A stretch of DNA of 45,997 bases from Burkholderiaceae bacterium (GTDB lineage: Bacteria; Pseudomonadota; Gammaproteobacteria; Burkholderiales; Burkholderiaceae_C). Positions 34,094 to 45,997 of this stretch are shown here, one piece after another. The stretch lies in NCBI GenBank assembly GCA_014879745.1, contig JACSRM010000227.1, forward strand, positions 1-45,997. The letters are read 5' to 3'. Each line of letters opens with the position of its first letter. Within the stretch, counting starts at the first letter, position 1. Made by a program: the position numbers and the translations under genes. Below the pieces are notes generated by a model. It was not told the origin of the DNA. It ran no database searches and saw only the letters and a list, made by a program, of their open reading frames with translations.

Positions 34094-36028
34094 TCAGGCG
34101 CTGGTCGATGCCGCGGACGGCCGGGTGACGGCCGACGGCACGAAGGCGTCGGTGAAGCAAAAGCCCTCGCCCAGCCCCTGCTCGATGAAGGCCGGCACCG
34201 CCGCCTCGACCATCTTGACCGAGCCGCAGACGTAGACCTCGTGCTGGCGCAAGTCGGGGAAGTCGGCCAGCATCGCCTCGTGGACGAGCCCGGTGCGCCC
34301 GCTCCAATGGCCCTGCGGATCCGGCTCCGAGAGGACCGGAACGAAGCGGAAGCACGGGTTCTCGCGCTGCCACTGCTCGGCAAGCGCGATCGCATACAGA
34401 TCGTCCTGCTTGCGAACACCCCAGTAGAGCCACATCGGCCGCGTGAGGCCGCGCGCGAAGGCATCCTCGACGATGCTCTTGATCGGCGCGAAGCCGGTCG
34501 CACCGGCAACGAACAGGATCGGGTGCGCGCTGTCGCTGAGCGTGAAGTGGCCGAGCGGCCCCTCGATGCGCAGCGTGTCGCCGACCTTCATCGACGTGAA
34601 GACGGCGCCGGTGAAGCGCCCGCCCGGGATGCGCCGCACGTGCAGTTCGATCTGGCCTTGCTGCTGCGGCGGGTTGGCGAACGAGAACGCGCGCCGTTGC
34701 CCGTCTTCGAGGATGATGTTGATGTACTGGCCGGCCTTGAACGGCAGCGTCGCGCCCTGCGGGAGCGAGAGCATGAGCCGGATCACCTCGGGCGCGAGGC
34801 GCTCCATGCTCTCGACGCGGACATCGAACTCGTGGATCGCGGCGAGTGCGGCGCGCGCGTCGGCCTCGACCTCGATGACGACGTCGGAGAGCGCCGTCGC
34901 GCAGCACATCAAGGCCTGGCCGCGGGCACGCGCGGCCTCGGGCAACGCACTCGGCTGGTAGGGCCCGAGATCGACGTTGCCGTGCAGCACGGTGCACAGG
35001 CACACGCCGCAGCCGCCGTTGCGGCACTCGTACGGCAGTTCGAGGCCATTGCGCAACCCGGCGTCGAGCAGCGTCTCGCCGCTGCGCACCGGCAGCGGAT
35101 CGCTCGTGCCGCTCGCGTGGTGCACCTCGAGATGAAAGTCCTGCGCGCGCTTGCGGCCGAACTTCGGCGGCAGCCACGGCAGCAGCACGAGCACGCCGGT
35201 GGCGCCGACGAGCAGCGCCCAGACCTGGCCGATTGGCCAGACCGAGACGAGCGGCAGCACGGCGAGGTAGAACCAGTCGAACTGCAGCGTCGTCACCGCC
35301 TCGCCGAGGTTGGCCGCGCCGCCCTGGCTCAGCACCGGACGCAGCGCCGACAGCAGCAGCAGCGTGATGATCACGCTTGTCATGATCGGCCGCGGCGGGT
35401 TGGTGCGCGCCTTCGGCACGCGCTGGACGTGGACCCATTGCACGAGCAGCAGCACGAGCGAGATGCCGATGTGCATGAACGCGAGCAGCGAGAAGAAGCG
35501 GTCGTTGACGCTGTCGGGGTAGATGAAGTTGCGCATCAGCGTGCCGCCGAAGCCGGGCAACCAGTCGAACCACTCGAAGGCAGCGACGATCGTGTACTGC
35601 GCGAGGTGGTCCCACGGCAGCATGAAGCCGGTGATGCCCGCCGAGTAGACGAGCCAGATCAGCACCACGCCGGTCACCCACGAAAACCAGCGGAAACCGC
35701 GGAAGTGGTTGAACGCGAAGTGGCGCACCATGTGGATCAGCATCGTGATGACGAAGCCGTCCGAGGCGTAGCGGTGGATGCTGCGCAGCACGCCGCCGGC
35801 GAACCACTGCCCGTGCGTCAGGCTCTCGACCGAGGTATAGGCGTCGGGGACGCCGGTCTCGAAGAACGCATACAGGTAGAGCCCGGTTGCGGCGACGACC
35901 CAGAACAGGAAGAAGCTGATCGCGCCGAGGTGGTAGAGCGGATTGAGCCGGTCGCCGAAGGCGGCGTTGAAGACCGCCTCGACCCGCATGAACAGCCATT
36001 GCAGGCCGCGTTGCAGAGCTTTGAGCAT
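34094..36028 (-). CDS. Fusion: cytochrome b N-terminal domain + [2Fe-2S] ferredoxin + FAD/NAD(P)-binding reductase
   Basis: MRVEAVFNAAFGDRLNPLYHLGAISFFLFW...cytochrome b helices; LPYECRNGGCGVCLCTV; RAFSFANPP; ILFVAGATGFAPIKSIVEDA. Confidence 0.88.
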   Translation of the reverse strand: MLKALQRGLQWLFMRVEAVFNAAFGDRLNPLYHLGAISFFLFWVVAATGLYLYAFFETGVPDAYTSVESLTHGQWFAGGVLRSIHRYASDGFVITMLIHMVRHFAFNHFRGFRWFSWVTGVVLIWLVYSAGITGFMLPWDHLAQYTIVAAFEWFDWLPGFGGTLMRNFIYPDSVNDRFFSLLAFMHIGISLVLLLVQWVHVQRVPKARTNPPRPIMTSVIITLLLLSALRPVLSQGGAANLGEAVTTLQFDWFYLAVLPLVSVWPIGQVWALLVGATGVLVLLPWLPPKFGRKRAQDFHLEVHHASGTSDPLPVRSGETLLDAGLRNGLELPYECRNGGCGVCLCTVLHGNVDLGPYQPSALPEAARARGQALMCCATALSDVVIEVEADARAALAAIHEFDVRVESMERLAPEVIRLMLSLPQGATLPFKAGQYINIILEDGQRRAFSFANPPQQQGQIELHVRRIPGGRFTGAVFTSMKVGDTLRIEGPLGHFTLSDSAHPILFVAGATGFAPIKSIVEDAFARGLTRPMWLYWGVRKQDDLYAIALAEQWQRENPCFRFVPVLSEPDPQGHWSGRTGLVHEAMLADFPDLRQHEVYVCGSVKMVEAAVPAFIEQGLGEGFCFTDAFVPSAVTRPSAASTSA

Positions 36029-36254: not shown

Positions 36255-37685
36255 TCAGCTGCCGGACCCGGGGTCGGTCCTGCGCCGCAGCGCGCCGATG
36301 ACGACGACGACGAACAGCAGGCCGCCGACGATGGCGATCAGGCCGCCCAGCCCCATCAGCCCCATGCCGGCGATCTCGGCGCTGCTGCGCAGCACCTGCT
36401 CGGTACCGGCGACCTTGCGCTGCACGCCGTAGCCGCCCGACCAGACGAGGCCGACGATGTGCAGCAGCTGCCCGAAGCCGTAGAGCGCGGGCTGCCAGGT
36501 CGCGAGCCGGCCCTGCGGCGTGCCGTAACCCATGCGCGGCAGCAGGTGGTAGACGAGCCCCATCAGCGCGAGCGTGACGCCGACGATGCAGCCGTGGTAG
36601 TGCGCCGGGATGCGCACGTTGCTGCCGCTGATGAAGATGCCGATCACGCCGCCGGCGCCGAACAGCAGGACCGAGGCCACCAGCGCCGAGCGCAGCGGCC
36701 GCGCCTGCAGCGTCGCCGCCGGTGCGCCGGCAAGCGCGGCGACGACGGCGAGCGCGATCGGCACGATCGCGACCCCGCCGCCCAGGCGCATCGCCCAGGT
36801 CAGCGCGTCGCGGTGCTCGACCGACGCGATATCGTGCGCGAGGTAGGCATACGGCGTGACGAAGACGCTGACGAGCGCGAGCATGAACATCAGCAACGTG
36901 ACGCGCGGGCTGAGCGCGACGCGCGCGCCCGACGCCCCGGCGAGCCAGAGCCAGGCGACGAGCATCAGCAGCGTCCACGTGAACTGCAGCGCATGGCCGC
37001 CGCCCCAGAACAGGATCTCGTAGTACGCGCGGCCCTCGAGCGTGAGCGGCAGCACGGCGAACGACCAGCCGAAGGCGAGCAGCGCGACGGCGGTCGCGAC
37101 GACGCTCGCGTTCAGCCCGAAGCGCAGCGCGCCGCCGCCGTCGAAGCTCGCGCCCAGGCGCGGCGCGAGCCACAGCGAGCGCAGCACGAGCAGCGCGGTG
37201 CCGACCGCGAACAGCAGCAGCCCGCCGAGGAAGGCCGCGCCGTCGAGCACCGGGATGTAGTTGGCCATCACCGCCTCGCCGCTGCCGACGAAGGGCGCCA
37301 GCGACATCGCGAGCGCGCCGGCCGCGGCCAGGCCGAGCGCGGTCCACGCCAGACCGAGCGCGCGCGGCGCGCCGATCAGGCTCCACAGCAGGCCGGCGAT
37401 GGCAATGAACCAGACGAGGACCGAAAGATCGACGTGGACGACGAGCGCGACGCGAAAGAAGTCGGCGCTCGGCAGCAGCTTGTTGACCCCCGGCGTTCGC
37501 GCCAGCACGAGCAGGACCGAGAACACGCCGGACAGGACGAGCGCACCGAGACCGAGTGCGAGCCAGCCGCGCGCCAGGTCGCGGCGGGCGTCGGCCGGCA
37601 CCGCGAGCGTGTATTCGGTGTCGTGGCGCGCCTGCGGCAGCGCGGCTGCGCGCCCGGCGGGCACGGGGGCGAGGTGCGCGCTCAT
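36255..37685 (-). CDS. Divergent heme-copper oxidase subunit I homologue with atypical CuB site
   Basis: VVHVDLSVLVWF, FWGGGHALQFTW, IPAHYHGCIVGVTLALMGLVYHLLPRMGYG; no HH pair at the CuB position. Confidence 0.85.
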   Translation of the reverse strand: MSAHLAPVPAGRAAALPQARHDTEYTLAVPADARRDLARGWLALGLGALVLSGVFSVLLVLARTPGVNKLLPSADFFRVALVVHVDLSVLVWFIAIAGLLWSLIGAPRALGLAWTALGLAAAGALAMSLAPFVGSGEAVMANYIPVLDGAAFLGGLLLFAVGTALLVLRSLWLAPRLGASFDGGGALRFGLNASVVATAVALLAFGWSFAVLPLTLEGRAYYEILFWGGGHALQFTWTLLMLVAWLWLAGASGARVALSPRVTLLMFMLALVSVFVTPYAYLAHDIASVEHRDALTWAMRLGGGVAIVPIALAVVAALAGAPAATLQARPLRSALVASVLLFGAGGVIGIFISGSNVRIPAHYHGCIVGVTLALMGLVYHLLPRMGYGTPQGRLATWQPALYGFGQLLHIVGLVWSGGYGVQRKVAGTEQVLRSSAEIAGMGLMGLGGLIAIVGGLLFVVVVIGALRRRTDPGSGS

Positions 37686-38200
37686 CGGAAGGTGATCCCG
37701 CCGCGCTGCGGATCGAAGTCGATCACCAGGATCTGCGCCGGCGCGAGCGTGACCGTCTTCTCGCTCTGGTAGTCGAAGCCGTCCTTGCGCGCATTGTCGT
37801 TGAGCCGCACCGCGAGCTGATGCGTGCCGGCCGGCACCGTCAGGCGCTGGTAGACCGACGAGGCGCCGTCGCGCGACAGGCCCGAGGGCGGCGCGACGTG
37901 GCGGATCGCCGGCTTGCCGTCGATATCGACCTCGACGACGACCGGCGAGCGCTCGCGCCCGCACTTCATCGGCGTGCGCATGTTGGGCGGCAGCTTGGCA
38001 AGCTCCTCCGGCGTGAGCTTGCGGCACTCGTCGACGCGCTGCGCCGCATGCGTGAAGCTGAGCTTGATCAAGGCCTCGTCGTCGGCCAGATGGCGGTACG
38101 TCGGCCAATGCGAGAAGACGCCGATGATGAGCGCGAAGACCCCATACAGCAGGGCCTGGCCGACCCAGGAGAAGCGCTTGCGCGCTGGAGTTTCATCCAT
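37682..38200 (-). CDS. One-TM hypothetical protein of respiratory operon
   Basis: MDETPARKRFSWVGQALLYGVFALIIGVFSHWPTYRHL...; ATGA/ATGGATGA overlaps with both neighbours. Confidence 0.75.
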   Translation of the reverse strand: MDETPARKRFSWVGQALLYGVFALIIGVFSHWPTYRHLADDEALIKLSFTHAAQRVDECRKLTPEELAKLPPNMRTPMKCGRERSPVVVEVDIDGKPAIRHVAPPSGLSRDGASSVYQRLTVPAGTHQLAVRLNDNARKDGFDYQSEKTVTLAPAQILVIDFDPQRGGITFR

Positions 38201-39740
38201 ACCGAAGTTTCTCATGTGAAGGCCCCGCGGCGGCCGATACCCGCAGTCCGAGTACGGCAAGCGCCGCCTCGACGGCGGCCTCGTCGCCGGCGTCGGCCCA
38301 GACCGTTGCCACCCGTTCGGCCGGCACCGAACGGCGCAGATGCGGCTCGCGCAGACCGAGCAGGCGTTCGCGCGTCCAGCGCTGACCGAGGCGGAAGGTG
38401 CAGCCGCCTTCGCTGCACCCGGTGACGAGCACGCCATCGGCGCCGCCGCGCAACGCATATTCGACGAACGAAGGCGGCAGCATGCCGGTGCAGATCAGGC
38501 TGAACGCGGCGACGCCGGCGCCGGCGAGCGATTCGACGCGCGCGCCGTGATCGCAGCCGATGACGACAAGCCTCGGTCGATCGTCCGGCATGCGTGCAAG
38601 CGCCGCTTCCACGCGCTCGCGCAGGTCGTTGATCGGCGACTGCGGCATGTCGATGCCGGTGACGAGCGCGGCGCCCTTGCGAAACGGCGTCGACGACGGG
38701 CAGGCGCCGACGCAGATGCCGCAGCTCGCGCACAGGTCGGCGTCGACCTGCGCCATCTGGCGCCCGATGCGTCCGTTCGGGTGCGTGACCATCGTGATCG
38801 CCGTATACGGGCAGTCCTCGAAGCAGCGCCGGCAGCCGTTGCAGTTGGCGGGGTCGACGACCGCCACCGGCGCCGCCGCAGGCTGTGGCAGGAAGGGCAG
38901 CGCGAAGAGCGCGATCAGCGTGCCGGCGAGGAGCAGCCACACCGCGCCCGCCGAAGTCGCGTAGACGAGCGGATGGATGAAGAGCAGCCACCAGTCGAGC
39001 GCGAGCGTCGCCGGCACGACCGAGAGGTCGGCCGGGCCCTGGCTGTGCACCGGCAGCACGAGCGCCACCGCGATGAGCGACGCCGTGACCCCGATCGCGA
39101 GCCGCAGCGGCGGAAAGGCCTCGGCACGCGCCAGACGCTGGATGTGAAACCACATCGCGAAGACGATGAAGAGCGCCACCCCGAGATGGACGAAGATGAA
39201 GAGCGAGAACAGCCGGTCGCCGACGCTTTCGACGCCGATGAAGTTGCGCGTCAGCGGCGAGCCGAAGATCGGCAGCCAGTCGAGGAATTCGGCGGTCGCG
39301 ATCGCCGAGAACTGGCCGAGCTTGTCCCAGTTCAGCCAGAAGCCGCCGATCGCGGAGGCGAATGCAAGCGGCAGCAGCGGCACGCCGGTCAGCCACGAGA
39401 AGCGGCGAACACCGCTGTAGCGGCCGAACAGCCATTCGCGCAGCAGATGCGCGAGCATCGTGACGACGAACGCATCGGCCGCATAGCGATGCAGGCTGCG
39501 CAGCCAGCCGCCGAGAAACCATTGCTCGCGTGAAAGTCCGTCGATCGAGACGTAGGCCCCGGTGGCCGAGGTATCGAGCACGGCATAGAGGTAGATGCCG
39601 GTCACCGCGAGCAGCCAGAAGCACAGGAAGGCGAGCGCGCCGAGGTGTCGCAGCGGGTTGAGCGCACCGCCGCCGACGACGCGGTCGAGTGCCGTCTCGG
39701 CGCGCTGCCAGAGCGCGCCGCAACGCTCGCGCGGATTCAT
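38193..39740 (-). CDS. Fusion: cytochrome b N-terminal domain + two 4Fe-4S motifs + MvhD-like iron-sulfur domain
   Basis: NPLRHLGALAFLCFWLLAVTGIYLY; CNGCRRCFEDCPYTAI and CASCGICVGACPSSTP; SLICTGMLPPSFVEYALRGGADGVLVTGCSEGGCTFRLGQRW. Confidence 0.88.
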   Translation of the reverse strand: MNPRERCGALWQRAETALDRVVGGGALNPLRHLGALAFLCFWLLAVTGIYLYAVLDTSATGAYVSIDGLSREQWFLGGWLRSLHRYAADAFVVTMLAHLLREWLFGRYSGVRRFSWLTGVPLLPLAFASAIGGFWLNWDKLGQFSAIATAEFLDWLPIFGSPLTRNFIGVESVGDRLFSLFIFVHLGVALFIVFAMWFHIQRLARAEAFPPLRLAIGVTASLIAVALVLPVHSQGPADLSVVPATLALDWWLLFIHPLVYATSAGAVWLLLAGTLIALFALPFLPQPAAAPVAVVDPANCNGCRRCFEDCPYTAITMVTHPNGRIGRQMAQVDADLCASCGICVGACPSSTPFRKGAALVTGIDMPQSPINDLRERVEAALARMPDDRPRLVVIGCDHGARVESLAGAGVAAFSLICTGMLPPSFVEYALRGGADGVLVTGCSEGGCTFRLGQRWTRERLLGLREPHLRRSVPAERVATVWADAGDEAAVEAALAVLGLRVSAAAGPSHEKLRYG

Positions 39741-40642
39741 CCCTCGGCGCTCGCGCGCGGTGGAAACTGACCGTTGGCCTTCGGCTTCTGCGCCGCGCCT
39801 TGCGTGCGCCGCAGGCGGCGGCTGGCGCGCAATTCGCCGACGAAGAACCAGAGCATCGCGATGACGAAGGTCACGCCGCCGGCGATCTCGAACGCGAGCG
39901 CGTAGCTGACGCGATATTCGCCGGTCGCCGGATCGTAGATCGAGCACAGGATGCGCACGCGGTCGACGAGGTCGGCCAGGTCGAGCCGCTGCGGCAGCGG
40001 CTCGTTGCGCAGCAGCTGGCGGATCGGCTCGGCGAGTTCATCGGCGCTGAAGTCTTCACCGTACACCTGGCGGTAGATGCGGCCCTGGCCATCGACCACC
40101 GTGACCTGCAGCAGGTGGTCGAAGCCCGCCTGGGTTGGCGTGTAGGCGAATCCGAAGTCGCGCGTCAGCGCCTCGACGGCCGACGGATGCGGGCTCAGGA
40201 ACTCCCAATTCGCCGCGGTGATGCGTTGCTGCGCGGCAAACGCCTTCATCGACGCCGGCGAATCGGCCGGTAGATTGAAGCCGATGCTGACGATGTTGTA
40301 CTGCCGCGGGTCCATGCTGCGGCCCATGCCCTCGATCGCCGCGGCGATCGCGCGCGTGCTCGTCGGGCAGACCTGGAAGCAGCCGGTGTACATGAAATTC
40401 ACGAGCAGCGGCTTGCCGCGGTAGTCGGCGAGGCGCACCGGCTTGCCGGCGCGATCGAGCAGCGTGTAGTCGCCGATCTTGCTGCCGATCGCGCCCTGGC
40501 TGATGCGCAGCGCCTCGGCCGGGTCGAGCGTGGCGCGCGAGACGGGTGCCTCGTCGGCGACCGCGCTGGCGACGAGCCCGGCCAGACAGATTCCGAGCAG
40601 GGTGACCAAACCCCGGCAACTGCGGGCGGCAGGCTTGTGCAT
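39737..40642 (-). CDS. SCO1/SenC family copper chaperone with C-terminal TM extension
   Basis: LLVNFMYTGCFQVCPTSTRAIAAAIEGM; FAYTPTQAGFDHLLQVTVVDGQGRIYRQVYG. Confidence 0.88.
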   Translation of the reverse strand: MHKPAARSCRGLVTLLGICLAGLVASAVADEAPVSRATLDPAEALRISQGAIGSKIGDYTLLDRAGKPVRLADYRGKPLLVNFMYTGCFQVCPTSTRAIAAAIEGMGRSMDPRQYNIVSIGFNLPADSPASMKAFAAQQRITAANWEFLSPHPSAVEALTRDFGFAYTPTQAGFDHLLQVTVVDGQGRIYRQVYGEDFSADELAEPIRQLLRNEPLPQRLDLADLVDRVRILCSIYDPATGEYRVSYALAFEIAGGVTFVIAMLWFFVGELRASRRLRRTQGAAQKPKANGQFPPRASAEG

Positions 40643-40652
40643 GCCGCAAATC

Positions 40653-41552
40653 CTAGCGCAACACGCCGTCGAGGCTCGCTCCGGCCAGCACCAGACTGAG
40701 TTGAAGCAGCGATGCGAAGAAGGAAGCCATCGCGGTCTTGCGGCTTGGCCGGCGCGCCAGCAGCCAGGACTTGTGCAGGAACACCGCGCCGCCGATGGCC
40801 GCTCCCGCGAAGTACCAGACTCCGGCGCCGAAGAGCACCGGCAGCAGCGACGCCGACACCAGTGCGACCGTGCTCCAGAAGACGGCCTGGGCCGCGCGCT
40901 GCGTGCCGACGACGACCGGCAGCATCGGCACGCCGGCTGCGGCATAGTCATCCTGGTTCGCGATCGCGAGACTCCAGAAGTGCGGCGGCGTCCACAGGAA
41001 GAGCACGAGCGCGAGCAGCAGTGGGAGCGCTCCGATCGCGGGGTCGACCGCAGCGGCGCCGGCGAGCACCGCGAAGCTGCCGGCAAGGCCGCCGACGACG
41101 ATATTGAGCCAGCTGCGCCGCTTGAGCCACACGGTATAGACGACCGCGTAGAAAAAGGCGCCGAGGAAGACATAGAGCGCGGCCCAGACGTTGAGCGCCC
41201 ACCACGCCGCGGCAACCGACAACGCGAGCAATGCACCGATCACGACCAGCCAGAGCGGAGTATGCGGCAGCGCGCCGGTGACGAAGGCGCGCTTGCGGGT
41301 GCGCGCCATGAGCCGATCGGACTCGGCTTCGACATACTGGTTGAATGCGCCTGCGCTCGCCGACGCCACCATCACCGAGACCGCGAGCACGAGCACCTGC
41401 GCCAGGCTCAGCGCCGGGCCCGGCGTGAAGGCAAAGCCGACCAGCGCGGTCAGCATGATCATCACGCCGATCCGCAGCTTGAACAGCCCGAGCACGTCGC
41501 GCACCAGCCGGGCCGGCGTGCGGGGCGCGAGTGCAAGGGCCGGCTTCATCAC
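40653..41552 (-). CDS. ctaB: Heme o synthase (protoheme IX farnesyltransferase)
   Basis: ASAGAFNQYVEAESDRLMARTRKRAFVTG; multiple TM; WTPPHFWSLAI. Confidence 0.95.
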   Translation of the reverse strand: MMKPALALAPRTPARLVRDVLGLFKLRIGVMIMLTALVGFAFTPGPALSLAQVLVLAVSVMVASASAGAFNQYVEAESDRLMARTRKRAFVTGALPHTPLWLVVIGALLALSVAAAWWALNVWAALYVFLGAFFYAVVYTVWLKRRSWLNIVVGGLAGSFAVLAGAAAVDPAIGALPLLLALVLFLWTPPHFWSLAIANQDDYAAAGVPMLPVVVGTQRAAQAVFWSTVALVSASLLPVLFGAGVWYFAGAAIGGAVFLHKSWLLARRPSRKTAMASFFASLLQLSLVLAGASLDGVLR

Positions 41553-41562
41553 CGCGTTCCGG

Positions 41563-43263
41563 TCAGGACAGGCCCCAGACCTGCGACAGGTACTTCCAGT
41601 TGATGAAGTAGTACAGCACGAAGGCGACGAAGAACACCATCGTCAGCACGAAGGTGCCGGGAGCGACGAAGCCGGCCGAGCCGTGGCTCTGTACCGCGAC
41701 GGTCGGCGCCGCGCGCGCCAGACGCACCGGCTTGGCACTCGTCGCGCCGCCTTCGAGTTTCTTGCCCCACAGCAGCGAACCGACCGTGATGTAGATGTAG
41801 ATCGCGCCGCCGACTATCGCGGCGACGCCGCCGACGCCGACCATTCCCATCATCAGGTAGGCCGCACCCGGCCATTCGTAGGCCATCGGCGCGCCGGCGA
41901 AGGCCATGTCCCAGTGCCGGCGGGCGACGCCGAGCGTGCCGGCGCCCATCATCACGAGGCAGAAGAAATACATCGAGAAGCCGAAGATGTACGGCTGCAG
42001 CCTGGCCAGCCCCGGGTTGATCATCTCGCGGCGGAACAGCACCGGGATCAGGTAGTAGGTCAACGCCATGAACGTCAGCGTCGTTCCGACGACGACCGTG
42101 GCGTGGAAGTGCCCCGGCACGTAGATCGTGTTGTGGATCAGCATGTTGAGCTGTTCGGTGCCCATCATCACGCCGGTGATGCCGCCCAGGAAGCCGAAGC
42201 CGACGAGCGCGATGAATACGCCCGAGAACACCGGGTTGCCCCACGGCGCCTTGCGCAGCCACTCGAAGAGGCCCTTGTTGTAGCCCTTGGCGCGCTGCGC
42301 GACTTCCATCGCGCCCGGCACGCTGAGCGCGTGGATCATCGACGCGAGCACCGCGAAGTACATGAAGTAGCTCGTATTGACGACCTTCCACGAGGTGCTG
42401 ACGCCCGGATCGGCGAGGATGTGGTGGGCGCTGGCGAGCTGCAGGAAGACGATGTAGAGCAGGAAGGCACCACGGCTCACGCGCTCGGACATCGGCTTCG
42501 CGCCGAACGCGATCGCCGCGACCAGATACCAGATCGAGATGTGCGCCGCGACGTTGATCTGCTGCGACGAGTGCCCGAACGCCCACCAGATGACGCGATA
42601 GGCGAGCGGATCGACGTTCTCGATCAGGCCGATCGACATCAGCCAGGTCGGAATCAGGATCATCGCGCCCGAGACGATCGTGAAGACGGCGATGATCGCC
42701 GCCGTCGTCGCGCCGAACGTGACGAGCGGCACCGAGCCGTCGTAGGTGTTGTCGCGCTTGGCGACGACGAGCGTGCCGAAAAAGACGAAGCACGCGATCA
42801 GCGCGCCGACGGCGAACAGGATCAGGCCGAGATAGAAGCTCTGCGCCGCCATCATCGGCACGTAGCTCGTCATCATCACGCTCGACTCGCCGGCATAGAC
42901 GGCGTAGTTGTTGACGACGGCGCCGATCACCATCAGTGCGAAAGCGAACCAGGCGATCTTCGGCGTCGCGATCCGGCAGCGCAGCAGCACCGACGACGCG
43001 AAGTACAGCACCGCGATCTCGAAGAAGATGATCCAGAAGATCAGCATGTTGATGCCGTGCGCGGTGAGCACTTGATAGAAGGTGTCGGCCTCGAGCCAGT
43101 GGATCGCGGGCCACCGCGTCAACACGACGCCGATCGCGAGAATGCCGCCGATCAGCAGGCAGACGACGGCGACGAACGCGTTGGCGAAGATCAGCTTCTC
43201 GGCGTTGGCCTCGAATTGCAGGCCCGACCTGGGGCAGGTCCGGTACGTGATGGCGCTGGACAT
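41563..43263 (-). CDS. ba3-like heme-copper enzyme subunit I with GHSSQQ in place of GHPxVY (candidate NO-reductase type)
   Basis: VLTAHGINMLIFW, WWAFGHSSQQINVAAHISIWY, ASAHHILADPG, NTIYVPGHFHATVVVG. Confidence 0.9.
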   Translation of the reverse strand: MSSAITYRTCPRSGLQFEANAEKLIFANAFVAVVCLLIGGILAIGVVLTRWPAIHWLEADTFYQVLTAHGINMLIFWIIFFEIAVLYFASSVLLRCRIATPKIAWFAFALMVIGAVVNNYAVYAGESSVMMTSYVPMMAAQSFYLGLILFAVGALIACFVFFGTLVVAKRDNTYDGSVPLVTFGATTAAIIAVFTIVSGAMILIPTWLMSIGLIENVDPLAYRVIWWAFGHSSQQINVAAHISIWYLVAAIAFGAKPMSERVSRGAFLLYIVFLQLASAHHILADPGVSTSWKVVNTSYFMYFAVLASMIHALSVPGAMEVAQRAKGYNKGLFEWLRKAPWGNPVFSGVFIALVGFGFLGGITGVMMGTEQLNMLIHNTIYVPGHFHATVVVGTTLTFMALTYYLIPVLFRREMINPGLARLQPYIFGFSMYFFCLVMMGAGTLGVARRHWDMAFAGAPMAYEWPGAAYLMMGMVGVGGVAAIVGGAIYIYITVGSLLWGKKLEGGATSAKPVRLARAAPTVAVQSHGSAGFVAPGTFVLTMVFFVAFVLYYFINWKYLSQVWGLS

Positions 43264-43276
43264 TTGTGCTCCTCTG

Positions 43277-43816
43277 TTATTTCACGTACATGTGGCTCAC
43301 CATCGAGTGATGGTTGATGCCGCAGAACTCGTTGCACACGATCGAGAACCGGCCGGACTGGTTCGGCGTGACGTTGACGACATGCTCGAAGCCGGGAACG
43401 ACCTGGATGTTGATATTGGTCGGCTGCAGCGAGAAGCCGTGGTTGTAGTCGAGCGAGGAAAGGTGCAGCCGGTAGGTCTTGCCCTTCTCGAGCTCGATGA
43501 TCGGCCACCAGCTCCACAGCCGCGCGACGAGGTAGACGTCGCCCCCCGGCGGCGGCGCGACGACCGGGATCTTGTCCTCGCCTTCGGTGCGCACCGTGTA
43601 CTTGTCGACCACCGCCTGCGCCTTCGCGACGAAGGCATCGGGCGTGATGCGGTAGGTCTCGGTCGACAGGTTCTGCTTGCCGTAGATGTGCCAGCCGACC
43701 ATCATGAAGAACATCACCATGCACCAGGCGAAGGCGATCGCGATCCAGGTGCCTTCGACCCGGTCCAGCGGATGCTTCCACCACAGTCTCTCTGCCGGTG
43801 GCAGGATTGCGCTCAT
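43277..43816 (-). CDS. Subunit II with intact CuA site
   Basis: SSLDYNHGFSLQPTNINIQVVPG...IVCNEFCGINHHSM. Confidence 0.93.
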   Translation of the reverse strand: MSAILPPAERLWWKHPLDRVEGTWIAIAFAWCMVMFFMMVGWHIYGKQNLSTETYRITPDAFVAKAQAVVDKYTVRTEGEDKIPVVAPPPGGDVYLVARLWSWWPIIELEKGKTYRLHLSSLDYNHGFSLQPTNINIQVVPGFEHVVNVTPNQSGRFSIVCNEFCGINHHSMVSHMYVK

Positions 43817-43862: not shown

Positions 43863-44018
43863 TCACTTCGCCATCGGGATGGTGAAGATGTCGATCAGGC
43901 CCCACGCGATGTACAGGACCATCGGCACCATGACACCGATGAACAACAGCAGGAATGGGTTGTCGAGCAGTTGTTGCAACCAGGGCACGGGTTCGTTGTC
44001 GTCGTGGTTCGAGCTCAT
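43863..44018 (-). CDS. 51-aa single-TM small subunit (IIa-like)
   Basis: MSSNHDDNEPVPWLQQLLDNPFLLLFIGVMVPMVLYIAWGLIDIFTIPMAK. Confidence 0.75.
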   Translation of the reverse strand: MSSNHDDNEPVPWLQQLLDNPFLLLFIGVMVPMVLYIAWGLIDIFTIPMAK

Positions 44019-44328
44019 GAATGTCCTCCTTCGGTCGGGGTGCGGCGCATGAAGCAATCCGGCGGCATTCTGCTGGCGGTGCCGTCAACTTGATTTGACC
44101 CAGCACAAGAACGCGGAGATTGCCGGCCGGCATCCGGGCGCCCCCTAGGGATGACCACTACGCCCTGCGTTGCGCCGGAATCACACCCGACAATCGGTCG
44201 ACACCTCCGATCCGAAACCGCAATGAAGCGAACTCACGCGCACCCCGTTGGCCGGCCCCCGAACGCGACGCGACGGCCGCGGCGCCGCTGGAAGCCTCGA
44301 AGATTTCCGGCCGCCGGGAGGGTTTGAC

Positions 44329-45282
44329 GTGGCCTCGCCCGACCGCAGCCGCACGCTGTTGCGCCGCATGGCGCTGCTGCTCACCGTGCTCGTGCTCGTG
44401 ATCACGAGCCTGAGCGCCTACATCCGGCTGTCGCGCGCCGGGCTGTCGTGTGCCGACTGGCCGCAGTGCTACGGCGAGCGCCTGCGCCAGGCGCAGCAGG
44501 GCGTCTCGGCGACGGCCGGCGACAGCGACGCGGTCGCCGCGGCGCGCTTCGCGCATCGCATCGTCGCCAGCGCGGCCCTGCTGATCATCGTCGCGATCGT
44601 CGCCGTGTGCTTTTCCGCGCGCCCGGTGTGGCGGGCGGAGGGCGGCGTCGCGCTGGCGCTGCTCGCGCTCGCGCTCGGCCTCGCCGTGCTCGGACGATGG
44701 TCCAGCGACGCGCGCGTGCCGGCGGTCGCACTCGGCAATCTGCTGGGCGGCTTCGCGATGTTCGCGCTGTGCTGGCGCCTGCTGCTGGCTCCTGGCGCCG
44801 CACTGGCGCGCGGTGCGCGCGTGTGGGCGATGCTTTGCGTGCTGCTGCTCGCGACACAGATCGCGCTCGGCGGACTGGTCAGCGCCACCTACGCGGCGAC
44901 GAGTTGCGGCGGCTTCGCCGATTGCCTGTCGGCGGCGCGCAGCCTGCCCTGGAGTGCGCTCGATCCGTGGCGCGAACCGGTGCTCGACGGCGCCGTGCCG
45001 ACGAATGCGTCGGGCGCGCTGGCCCAGACCCTGCACCGCGGCGCGGCGCTGCTCGTGCTGGTCGCGACCGCGCCGCTCGCGCTCGTGGCCTGGCGCAGCC
45101 GCCGCCGTCTGGCCAGCGCGCTGCTGCTGGTGCTGCTGGCCGGCACGGCCGGCCTCGGCATCGCGATGGCGCGCCACGGCCCGACGCTCGCGATGGCGCT
45201 GGCGCACAACCTCGCCGCCGCCCTGCTGCTGGCGACGCTGTTCGCGTTGGCGCGCGGGCCCGCGACAGCCGACGAGCGTTGA
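44329..45282 (+). CDS. ctaA: COX15/CtaA family heme A synthase (GTG start)
   Basis: SLSAYIRLSRAGLSCADWPQCYGER; 8-TM pattern; HR and GLVSATY motifs. Confidence 0.85.
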   Translation: MASPDRSRTLLRRMALLLTVLVLVITSLSAYIRLSRAGLSCADWPQCYGERLRQAQQGVSATAGDSDAVAAARFAHRIVASAALLIIVAIVAVCFSARPVWRAEGGVALALLALALGLAVLGRWSSDARVPAVALGNLLGGFAMFALCWRLLLAPGAALARGARVWAMLCVLLLATQIALGGLVSATYAATSCGGFADCLSAARSLPWSALDPWREPVLDGAVPTNASGALAQTLHRGAALLVLVATAPLALVAWRSRRRLASALLLVLLAGTAGLGIAMARHGPTLAMALAHNLAAALLLATLFALARGPATADER

Positions 45283-45334: not shown

Positions 45335-45997
45335 ATGGCGCCGCGCCCGTTCGATGTGCCTGGGTTCTTGTCGGTGCTGCCACTCTTCAATGACCTCAGC
45401 CCCGAGGAGTTGAAGCAGATCGCCCAGGGGTGCGCGCTGCGCCGTGTGGCGCGCGGCGAGATCCTGTACCGGGTCGGCGATCCGTGTGAAGAGTTTCACG
45501 TCATCGTCACCGGCCAGATCAAGCTGTTCCTGCTCTCGCCGTCGGGTCAGGAGAAGGTCGTCGAGCTGATCGGCGCCGGCCAGAGCTTCGCCGAGGCGGT
45601 CATGTTCAGCGATCGGCCCTACATCCTGAACGCGCAGGCGCTCACCGACTCGCTGGTGCTGACGGTCTGCAAGCAGGCGGTGCTCGCCGAGATCGAGCGC
45701 GATCACCGTTTCGCGCTGCGCATGATTGCCGGCCTCGCGCGGCGCCTGCACGGGCTCGTCAACGATGTCGAGGCCTATTCGCTGCACTCCGGGCTGCAGC
45801 GCGTGATCGGCTTCCTGTTGCGCGACCAGGCGCTCGAGGACGGCGAAGCAGGCGCGGTGCGAACCGTCTCGTTGCCGGTCAGCAAGGCGACGATCGCGTC
45901 GCGCCTGTCGCTGACACCCGAGTATTTTTCGCGCGTGCTGCACGAACTCGAGGCGCGCGGCCTGATCGAGATCGACCGCCGCGACATCCGCATTCTC
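45335..45997 (+). CDS. Crp/Fnr family regulator, possibly Dnr-like (runs off window)
   Basis: FLSVLPLFNDLSPEELKQIAQGCALRRVARGEILYRVGDPCEEFHVIVTGQIKLF...VSKATIASRLSLTPEYFSRVLHELEARGLI. Confidence 0.88.
   Translation, partial: MAPRPFDVPGFLSVLPLFNDLSPEELKQIAQGCALRRVARGEILYRVGDPCEEFHVIVTGQIKLFLLSPSGQEKVVELIGAGQSFAEAVMFSDRPYILNAQALTDSLVLTVCKQAVLAEIERDHRFALRMIAGLARRLHGLVNDVEAYSLHSGLQRVIGFLLRDQALEDGEAGAVRTVSLPVSKATIASRLSLTPEYFSRVLHELEARGLIEIDRRDIRIL

Follow-up and report, generated by a model that had tools for sequence, protein, structure and literature searches.

The window, the whole stretch of 45,997 nucleotides of Burkholderiaceae DNA analyzed here, contains a minus-strand operon encoding, in order, a 51-amino-acid protein, a CuA subunit, a heme-copper subunit I, CtaB, Sco1, a protein joining a cytochrome b to two [4Fe-4S] motifs and an MvhD domain (the fusion), DUFx, COX1b, and a second cytochrome b joined to Fer2 and FNR-type modules (Table 1). 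Several operon genes overlap by a few bases; the ORF of the fusion starts with ATG and overlaps the upstream Sco1 gene by 4 nt. An earlier note on this DNA had placed the fusion gene at positions 38193 to 39740, and an ORF lies exactly there, on the minus strand.

Behind CtaA, a gene for a Crp/FNR-like regulator (45335-45997, plus strand) diverges from the operon. Homologs of this regulator were found near the operon in at least 18 of 80 loci, a lower bound obtained with a poorly framed query. Allowing up to 2 mismatches, a scan for FNR boxes gave 42 hits where 16.6 were expected, but these were scattered over the window with none at the operon start, and the scan was not used further.

Table 1. 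Genes and domains of the operon and its divergent neighbor
Feature	Positions	Strand	Remarks
COX15/CtaA-family gene	44248-45282	plus	divergent
Small protein, probable single-helix small subunit	43863-44018	minus	51 aa
CuA subunit II of predicted eNOR	43277-43816	minus	
Subunit I of predicted eNOR (GHSSQQ)	41563-43263	minus	Gln at cross-linked Tyr position
CtaB heme O synthase	40653-41549	minus	
Sco1-family copper chaperone	39737-40594	minus	start codon approximate
Fusion gene (cytochrome b-2[4Fe-4S]-MvhD)	38193-39740	minus	515 aa; Pfam, alignment, AlphaFold2 model
Six-helix bc-type cytochrome b domain (predicted), residues 30-283	38892-39653	minus	Pfam, fold alignment, invariant His
Ferredoxin domain, residues 292-350	38691-38867	minus	two CxxCxxCxxxCP motifs
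MvhD/FlpD domain, residues 396-492	38265-38555	minus	Pfam, comparison with solved MvhD, invariant Cys
DUFx, one-helix membrane protein with outer beta-sandwich	37682-38215	minus	overlaps fusion gene
COX1b, heme-copper-fold protein	36255-37685	minus	heme His kept; CuB His pair and Tyr absent
Paralogous cytochrome b with 2Fe-2S ferredoxin and FNR-type NAD(P)H/FAD module	34094-36028	minus	

Domains, fold, and conservation of the fusion protein

All three parts of the fusion were recovered by profile searches. Pfam Cytochrome_B matched residues 30 to 202 with 65 bits, above its curated cut-off, the 4Fe-4S motifs at residues 292 to 350 exceeded theirs, and FlpD (PF02662) matched residues 410 to 492 with 47.5 bits (cut-off, 22.3), so the two 4Fe-4S motifs and the C-terminal MvhD/FlpD domain read from the sequence in the earlier note are both borne out. 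The ferredoxin cysteines are C300, C303, C306, and C310 in motif one and C337, C340, C343, and C347 in motif two. MvhD/FlpD domains have four conserved cysteines (PMC5736913), and those of the fusion are C396, C417, C442, and C447. All 12 Fe-S cysteines, together with H84, H98, H185, and H199, were invariant among 41 aligned sequences reaching down to 40% identity, one plasmid-derived row having been omitted from the alignment.

When public genomes were scanned with a profile, 80 full-length homologs at 51 to 95% identity were recovered, mainly from Betaproteobacteria with some from Gammaproteobacteria and Alphaproteobacteria, and including isolates and complete genomes; Comamonas granuli and Paucibacter oligotrophus are among the carriers. 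Because these homologs come from independent assemblies, the fusion is real, and an assembly error or chimera is ruled out. The architecture had been called unusual, which stands insofar as solved MvhD subunits match the protein by sequence and none of those found in our searches has the cytochrome b-2[4Fe-4S]-MvhD arrangement; the family that has it is nevertheless conserved and occurs in about 9% of the genomes sampled across class and phylum. Although contig ends cut many of the 80 loci, neighbors recurred as DUFx in 79, Sco1 in 77, subunit I in 71, COX1b in 71, the cytochrome b-FNR paralog in 70, and the CuA subunit in 66. Two small genomes of one family, G546 and G609, carry a tandem pair of cytochrome b-Fd-MvhD genes (L179 2371-5885 and L181 7581-10994), whose products perhaps form a heterodimer.

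The N-terminal part, described earlier as a PetB-like four-helix cytochrome b, is indeed a cytochrome b, but fold alignment predicts a membrane domain of six helices (A to F) of the bc type, including the ef segment. In the AlphaFold2 model (pLDDT 90, pTM 0.87), residues 11 to 288 aligned to bc1 cytochrome b over about 258 residues with Z scores of 19 to 23 and rmsd values of 2.9 to 4.4. Two histidine pairs, H84/H98 and H185/H199, correspond to the heme ligands of helices B and D in bc1/b6f. D249-W250 occupies the ef-segment place of the quinol-site motif (P)[E/D/V]W[Y]; among 60 relatives, D249 was kept in 59 and W250 in all 60, with the Pro replaced. Six helices and positively charged cytoplasmic loops put both termini, and therefore the Fe-S end, on the cytoplasmic side.

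The C-terminal half of the fusion resembles the Fd-MvhD tail of HdrA2. Over 200 residues, NCBIfam NF040770 (profile positions 571 to 759) was the best NCBIfam match to this half, with a whole-protein E value of 2.5e-22. Similarity to both MvhD and the HdrA2 tail is what would speak for a subunit of an Hdr- or hydrogenase-like bifurcating complex, comparable to methanogen MvhD. In the host genome (96.8% complete), however, the HdrA2 profile matched only the tail of the fusion itself, HdrA was not detected, and there was no second FlpD/MvhD domain. Likewise, 25 of 52 fusion-positive genomes had no HdrA match beyond that tail. HdrA is thus unlikely as a partner of the MvhD domain, the hydrogenase/heterodisulfide reductase reading of the earlier note does not carry over to this host, and we rejected such a partner role as barely credible.

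A predicted nitric oxide reductase and its genomic pairing with the fusion

The identity of the neighboring heme-copper enzyme sets the context of the fusion. In subunit I, the motif GHSSQQ aligns to GHPVVY, placing a Gln at the cross-linked Tyr site of oxygen reductases, and among about 100 homologs of subunit I with coverage of this site, every one had Gln. The heme and CuB histidines of the B family (H69, H231, H280, H281, H385, and H387) are conserved, as are the CuA ligands of subunit II (C161, E163, C165, H169, M172, and H126), and the closest solved structures are of the ba3 type. Gln at the active-site position defines eNOR, and Asn defines sNOR (PMC8756737 Table A4). By sequence, the enzyme is a predicted eNOR, a Gln-type CuA nitric oxide reductase; sNOR (norSY-senC) has a similar gene order but was rejected, the active-site residue being Gln and not Asn. 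The fusion does adjoin heme-copper genes, as had been noticed, and because of the active-site Gln its context would be denitrification, not oxygen respiration or hydrogenase/Hdr chemistry. Both nirS and nosZ are present in the host genome.

An Accumulibacter sp. operon (L093) also encodes a Gln-type subunit I. Transcripts of a "ba3 oxidase" have been reported in Ca. Accumulibacter (PMC6446978), and this enzyme may really be an eNOR.

All genomes surveyed for pairing were Pseudomonadota. Across the class, 369 genomes contained 34 with the fusion, 34 with eNOR, and 33 with both, so that both occurred in 33 of the 35 holding either. Across the phylum, the corresponding values for 398 genomes were 34, 30, and 29 (29 of 35), after a 31st eNOR match, in G725, was left out as a Tyr-type ba3 oxidase. 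In the genomes holding only eNOR (G323 and G484), contigs end just past the eNOR genes, and most genomes holding only the fusion are less than 85% complete. Co-occurrence persisted in several genomes where the fusion and DUFx are encoded away from eNOR, adjoining nirS and heme d1 genes. Because the genomes share ancestry, Fisher p-values for this co-occurrence overstate the number of independent events. The fusion is a widespread and almost obligate companion of eNOR in denitrifying bacteria.

The same detached copies, and the presence of NirS in 48 of 51 fusion-positive versus 4 of 29 fusion-negative genomes, would also be expected if the fusion were an accessory protein of NirS or heme d1 synthesis. 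This is very improbable, and as a sole role it was rejected, since three fusion-positive genomes (3/51) lacked a NirS match; four NirS-positive genomes lacked the fusion, and the link to NirS is looser than that to eNOR.

Of the remaining operon proteins, DUFx had no match in Pfam or NCBIfam. Its model (pLDDT 94.6) consists of one helix and a beta-sandwich, with H53, C61, and C82 nearly invariant, and no convincing relative emerged from a fold search, in which the best Foldseek E value was 4e-3 and the best Z score, 8.9 over 93 residues, belonged to an unrelated enzyme. DUFx always accompanies a cytochrome b module. COX1b retains the heme histidines H113, H391, and H393 and one CuB-type His, with Phe replacing Tyr (GHALQF); because it is conserved in most loci, it is probably functional, though not as a standard catalytic subunit.

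The cytochrome b-Fer2-FNR paralog has a cytochrome b 45% identical to that of the fusion, and in a tree the two domains are close relatives well apart from bc1. The two proteins have the cytochrome b type, the operon, and the DUFx partner in common and differ in their input modules, NAD(P)H/FAD plus [2Fe-2S] in the paralog versus Fd-MvhD in the fusion. Genome G057 has an eNOR operon with the FNR-type paralog and DUFx, and an MvhD-type protein is absent from that genome; in Alphaproteobacteria, the MvhD type alone was observed. A search of plasmids yielded a single relative, a minimal operon with only the MvhD type on Defluviimonas plasmid NZ_CP156080.1 (L124 6790-14493). There, a hemerythrin-family gene follows the operon, and subunit I is annotated as a cbb3-type oxidase. 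One reading of this distribution is that a common cytochrome b and DUFx unit accepts different, exchangeable cytoplasmic input modules.

Possible roles of the fusion in electron transfer

Tentatively, we favor a role for the fusion as a dedicated membrane partner of eNOR, a transmembrane conduit between a cytoplasmic donor and the quinone/eNOR side. The cofactors, the donor and acceptor, the direction of electron flow, and any physical contact with eNOR would be as follows. A low-potential cytoplasmic donor, either ferredoxin or a docking flavoprotein, would reduce the MvhD [2Fe-2S] and two [4Fe-4S] clusters. Two b hemes could then carry electrons across the membrane. On the outside, the acceptor would be quinone bound at the Qo-like site, eNOR, or both, and the beta-sandwich protein DUFx would be the putative partner on that side. 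The cytochrome b-Fer2-FNR paralog would do the same job with electrons from NAD(P)H.

Ligand invariance, topology, co-occurrence with eNOR even when the genes are apart, and operon order with its overlaps all argue for the conduit, as do the exchangeable-looking input modules of G057 and Alphaproteobacteria and the close relationship of the two cytochrome b types. Against it stand a Qo-like motif without its Pro and an operon in which no ORF encodes a Rieske protein or cytochrome c1/f. Other B-family CuA enzymes receive electrons from cytochrome c or quinol and run without such a partner, so eNOR may not need the fusion.

The bc1-like fold, ef motif included, and the relationship of the Fe-S/MvhD tail to that of bifurcating HdrA2 could also be taken to indicate quinol bifurcation at the Qo-like site, one electron passing to eNOR and the other moving via the b hemes into the ferredoxin/MvhD part. 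Such a scheme appears improbable, given the missing Rieske protein and motif Pro, electrons that would have to run against the membrane potential, and no published precedent found. Equally improbable are its details, in which the eNOR branch would replace Rieske and cytochrome c1 and the FNR paralog would reduce NAD(P)+. If true, the cost of making low-potential reductant would be borne by NO reduction.

The D-W motif is kept in both MvhD-type and FNR-type proteins, the paralog carries an NAD(P)H/FAD module, and the fusion lies away from eNOR next to nirS in some genomes, as might be found for a stand-alone oxidoreductase that passes electrons from a cytoplasmic donor to the quinone pool in denitrification and is co-regulated with eNOR without contacting it. 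We consider this possible but unlikely, because co-occurrence is tighter with eNOR than with NirS, a tightness that a quinone reductase of general use would not require.

Neighborhood alone cannot separate electron supply from maturation, because the operon also carries Sco1 and CtaB. A role in the redox maturation or repair of eNOR, in which the fusion would reduce thiols of Sco1/CuA or provide electrons for metal-site assembly, would suit an operon rich in such cofactor genes, a position directly between Sco1 and DUFx, and the two nearly invariant DUFx cysteines. Other CuA enzymes, as is generally known, mature with Sco and without a cytochrome b-Fe-S device, and at least 10 redox centers plus a quinone-site motif fit electron traffic better, making a maturation role distinctly unlikely.

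As a conduit, the fusion may show the electron source of eNOR, a lately recognized maker of the greenhouse gas N2O that has a predicted proton channel and may conserve energy. Pairing almost one-to-one with eNOR in the sampled Pseudomonadota, it can serve as a genomic marker of eNOR operons, which frequently carry oxygen reductase annotations.

Comparison with known systems

Published eNORs have the active-site Gln and a CuA subunit II encoded directly upstream, as in the operon of the fusion; in these papers eNOR is treated as two subunits, its electron donor is unnamed, and a cytochrome b-MvhD partner is unmentioned (PMC8756737; PMC4653789). Relative to both papers, the fusion as an eNOR partner would be new, an earlier description elsewhere being possible.

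With bc1/b6f cytochrome b, the fusion has in common the fold of residues 11 to 288, the four heme histidines, and the D/V-W motif of the ef loop. It differs in lacking helices G and H, in the loss of the PEWY Pro, and in having gained cytoplasmic Fe-S domains. Membrane complexes of the Qmo/HdrDE type also connect Fe-S chemistry of the MvhD or Hdr kind with quinone and a b-type cytochrome in the membrane. Likened to the fusion by description rather than sequence, these use separate subunits, a NarI/HdrE-like cytochrome, and the flavoprotein HdrA/QmoA.

The fusion represents an MvhD domain used outside the Hdr system. In HdrA2, an HdrA-MvhD fusion, the tail has the same order of 2[4Fe-4S] ferredoxin followed by MvhD, with a bifurcating FAD module where the fusion has its six-helix cytochrome b. 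The [2Fe-2S] connector cysteines of the MvhD, VhuD, and FdhAB-associated MvhD proteins of methanogens have counterparts in the fusion. Methanogen MvhD, whose role is described in PMC12350162, differs from the membrane-bound fusion. It is soluble, forms a subunit of its own that docks onto HdrA, and has no membrane domain. Similar in domain listing, and likened on that basis and not by sequence, is RME88945.1, a single ORF listed without comment in PMC8756737 Table A3, which combines cytochrome b6, ferredoxin-like, and FlpD domains like those of the fusion with an additional c-type cytochrome (C1) domain.
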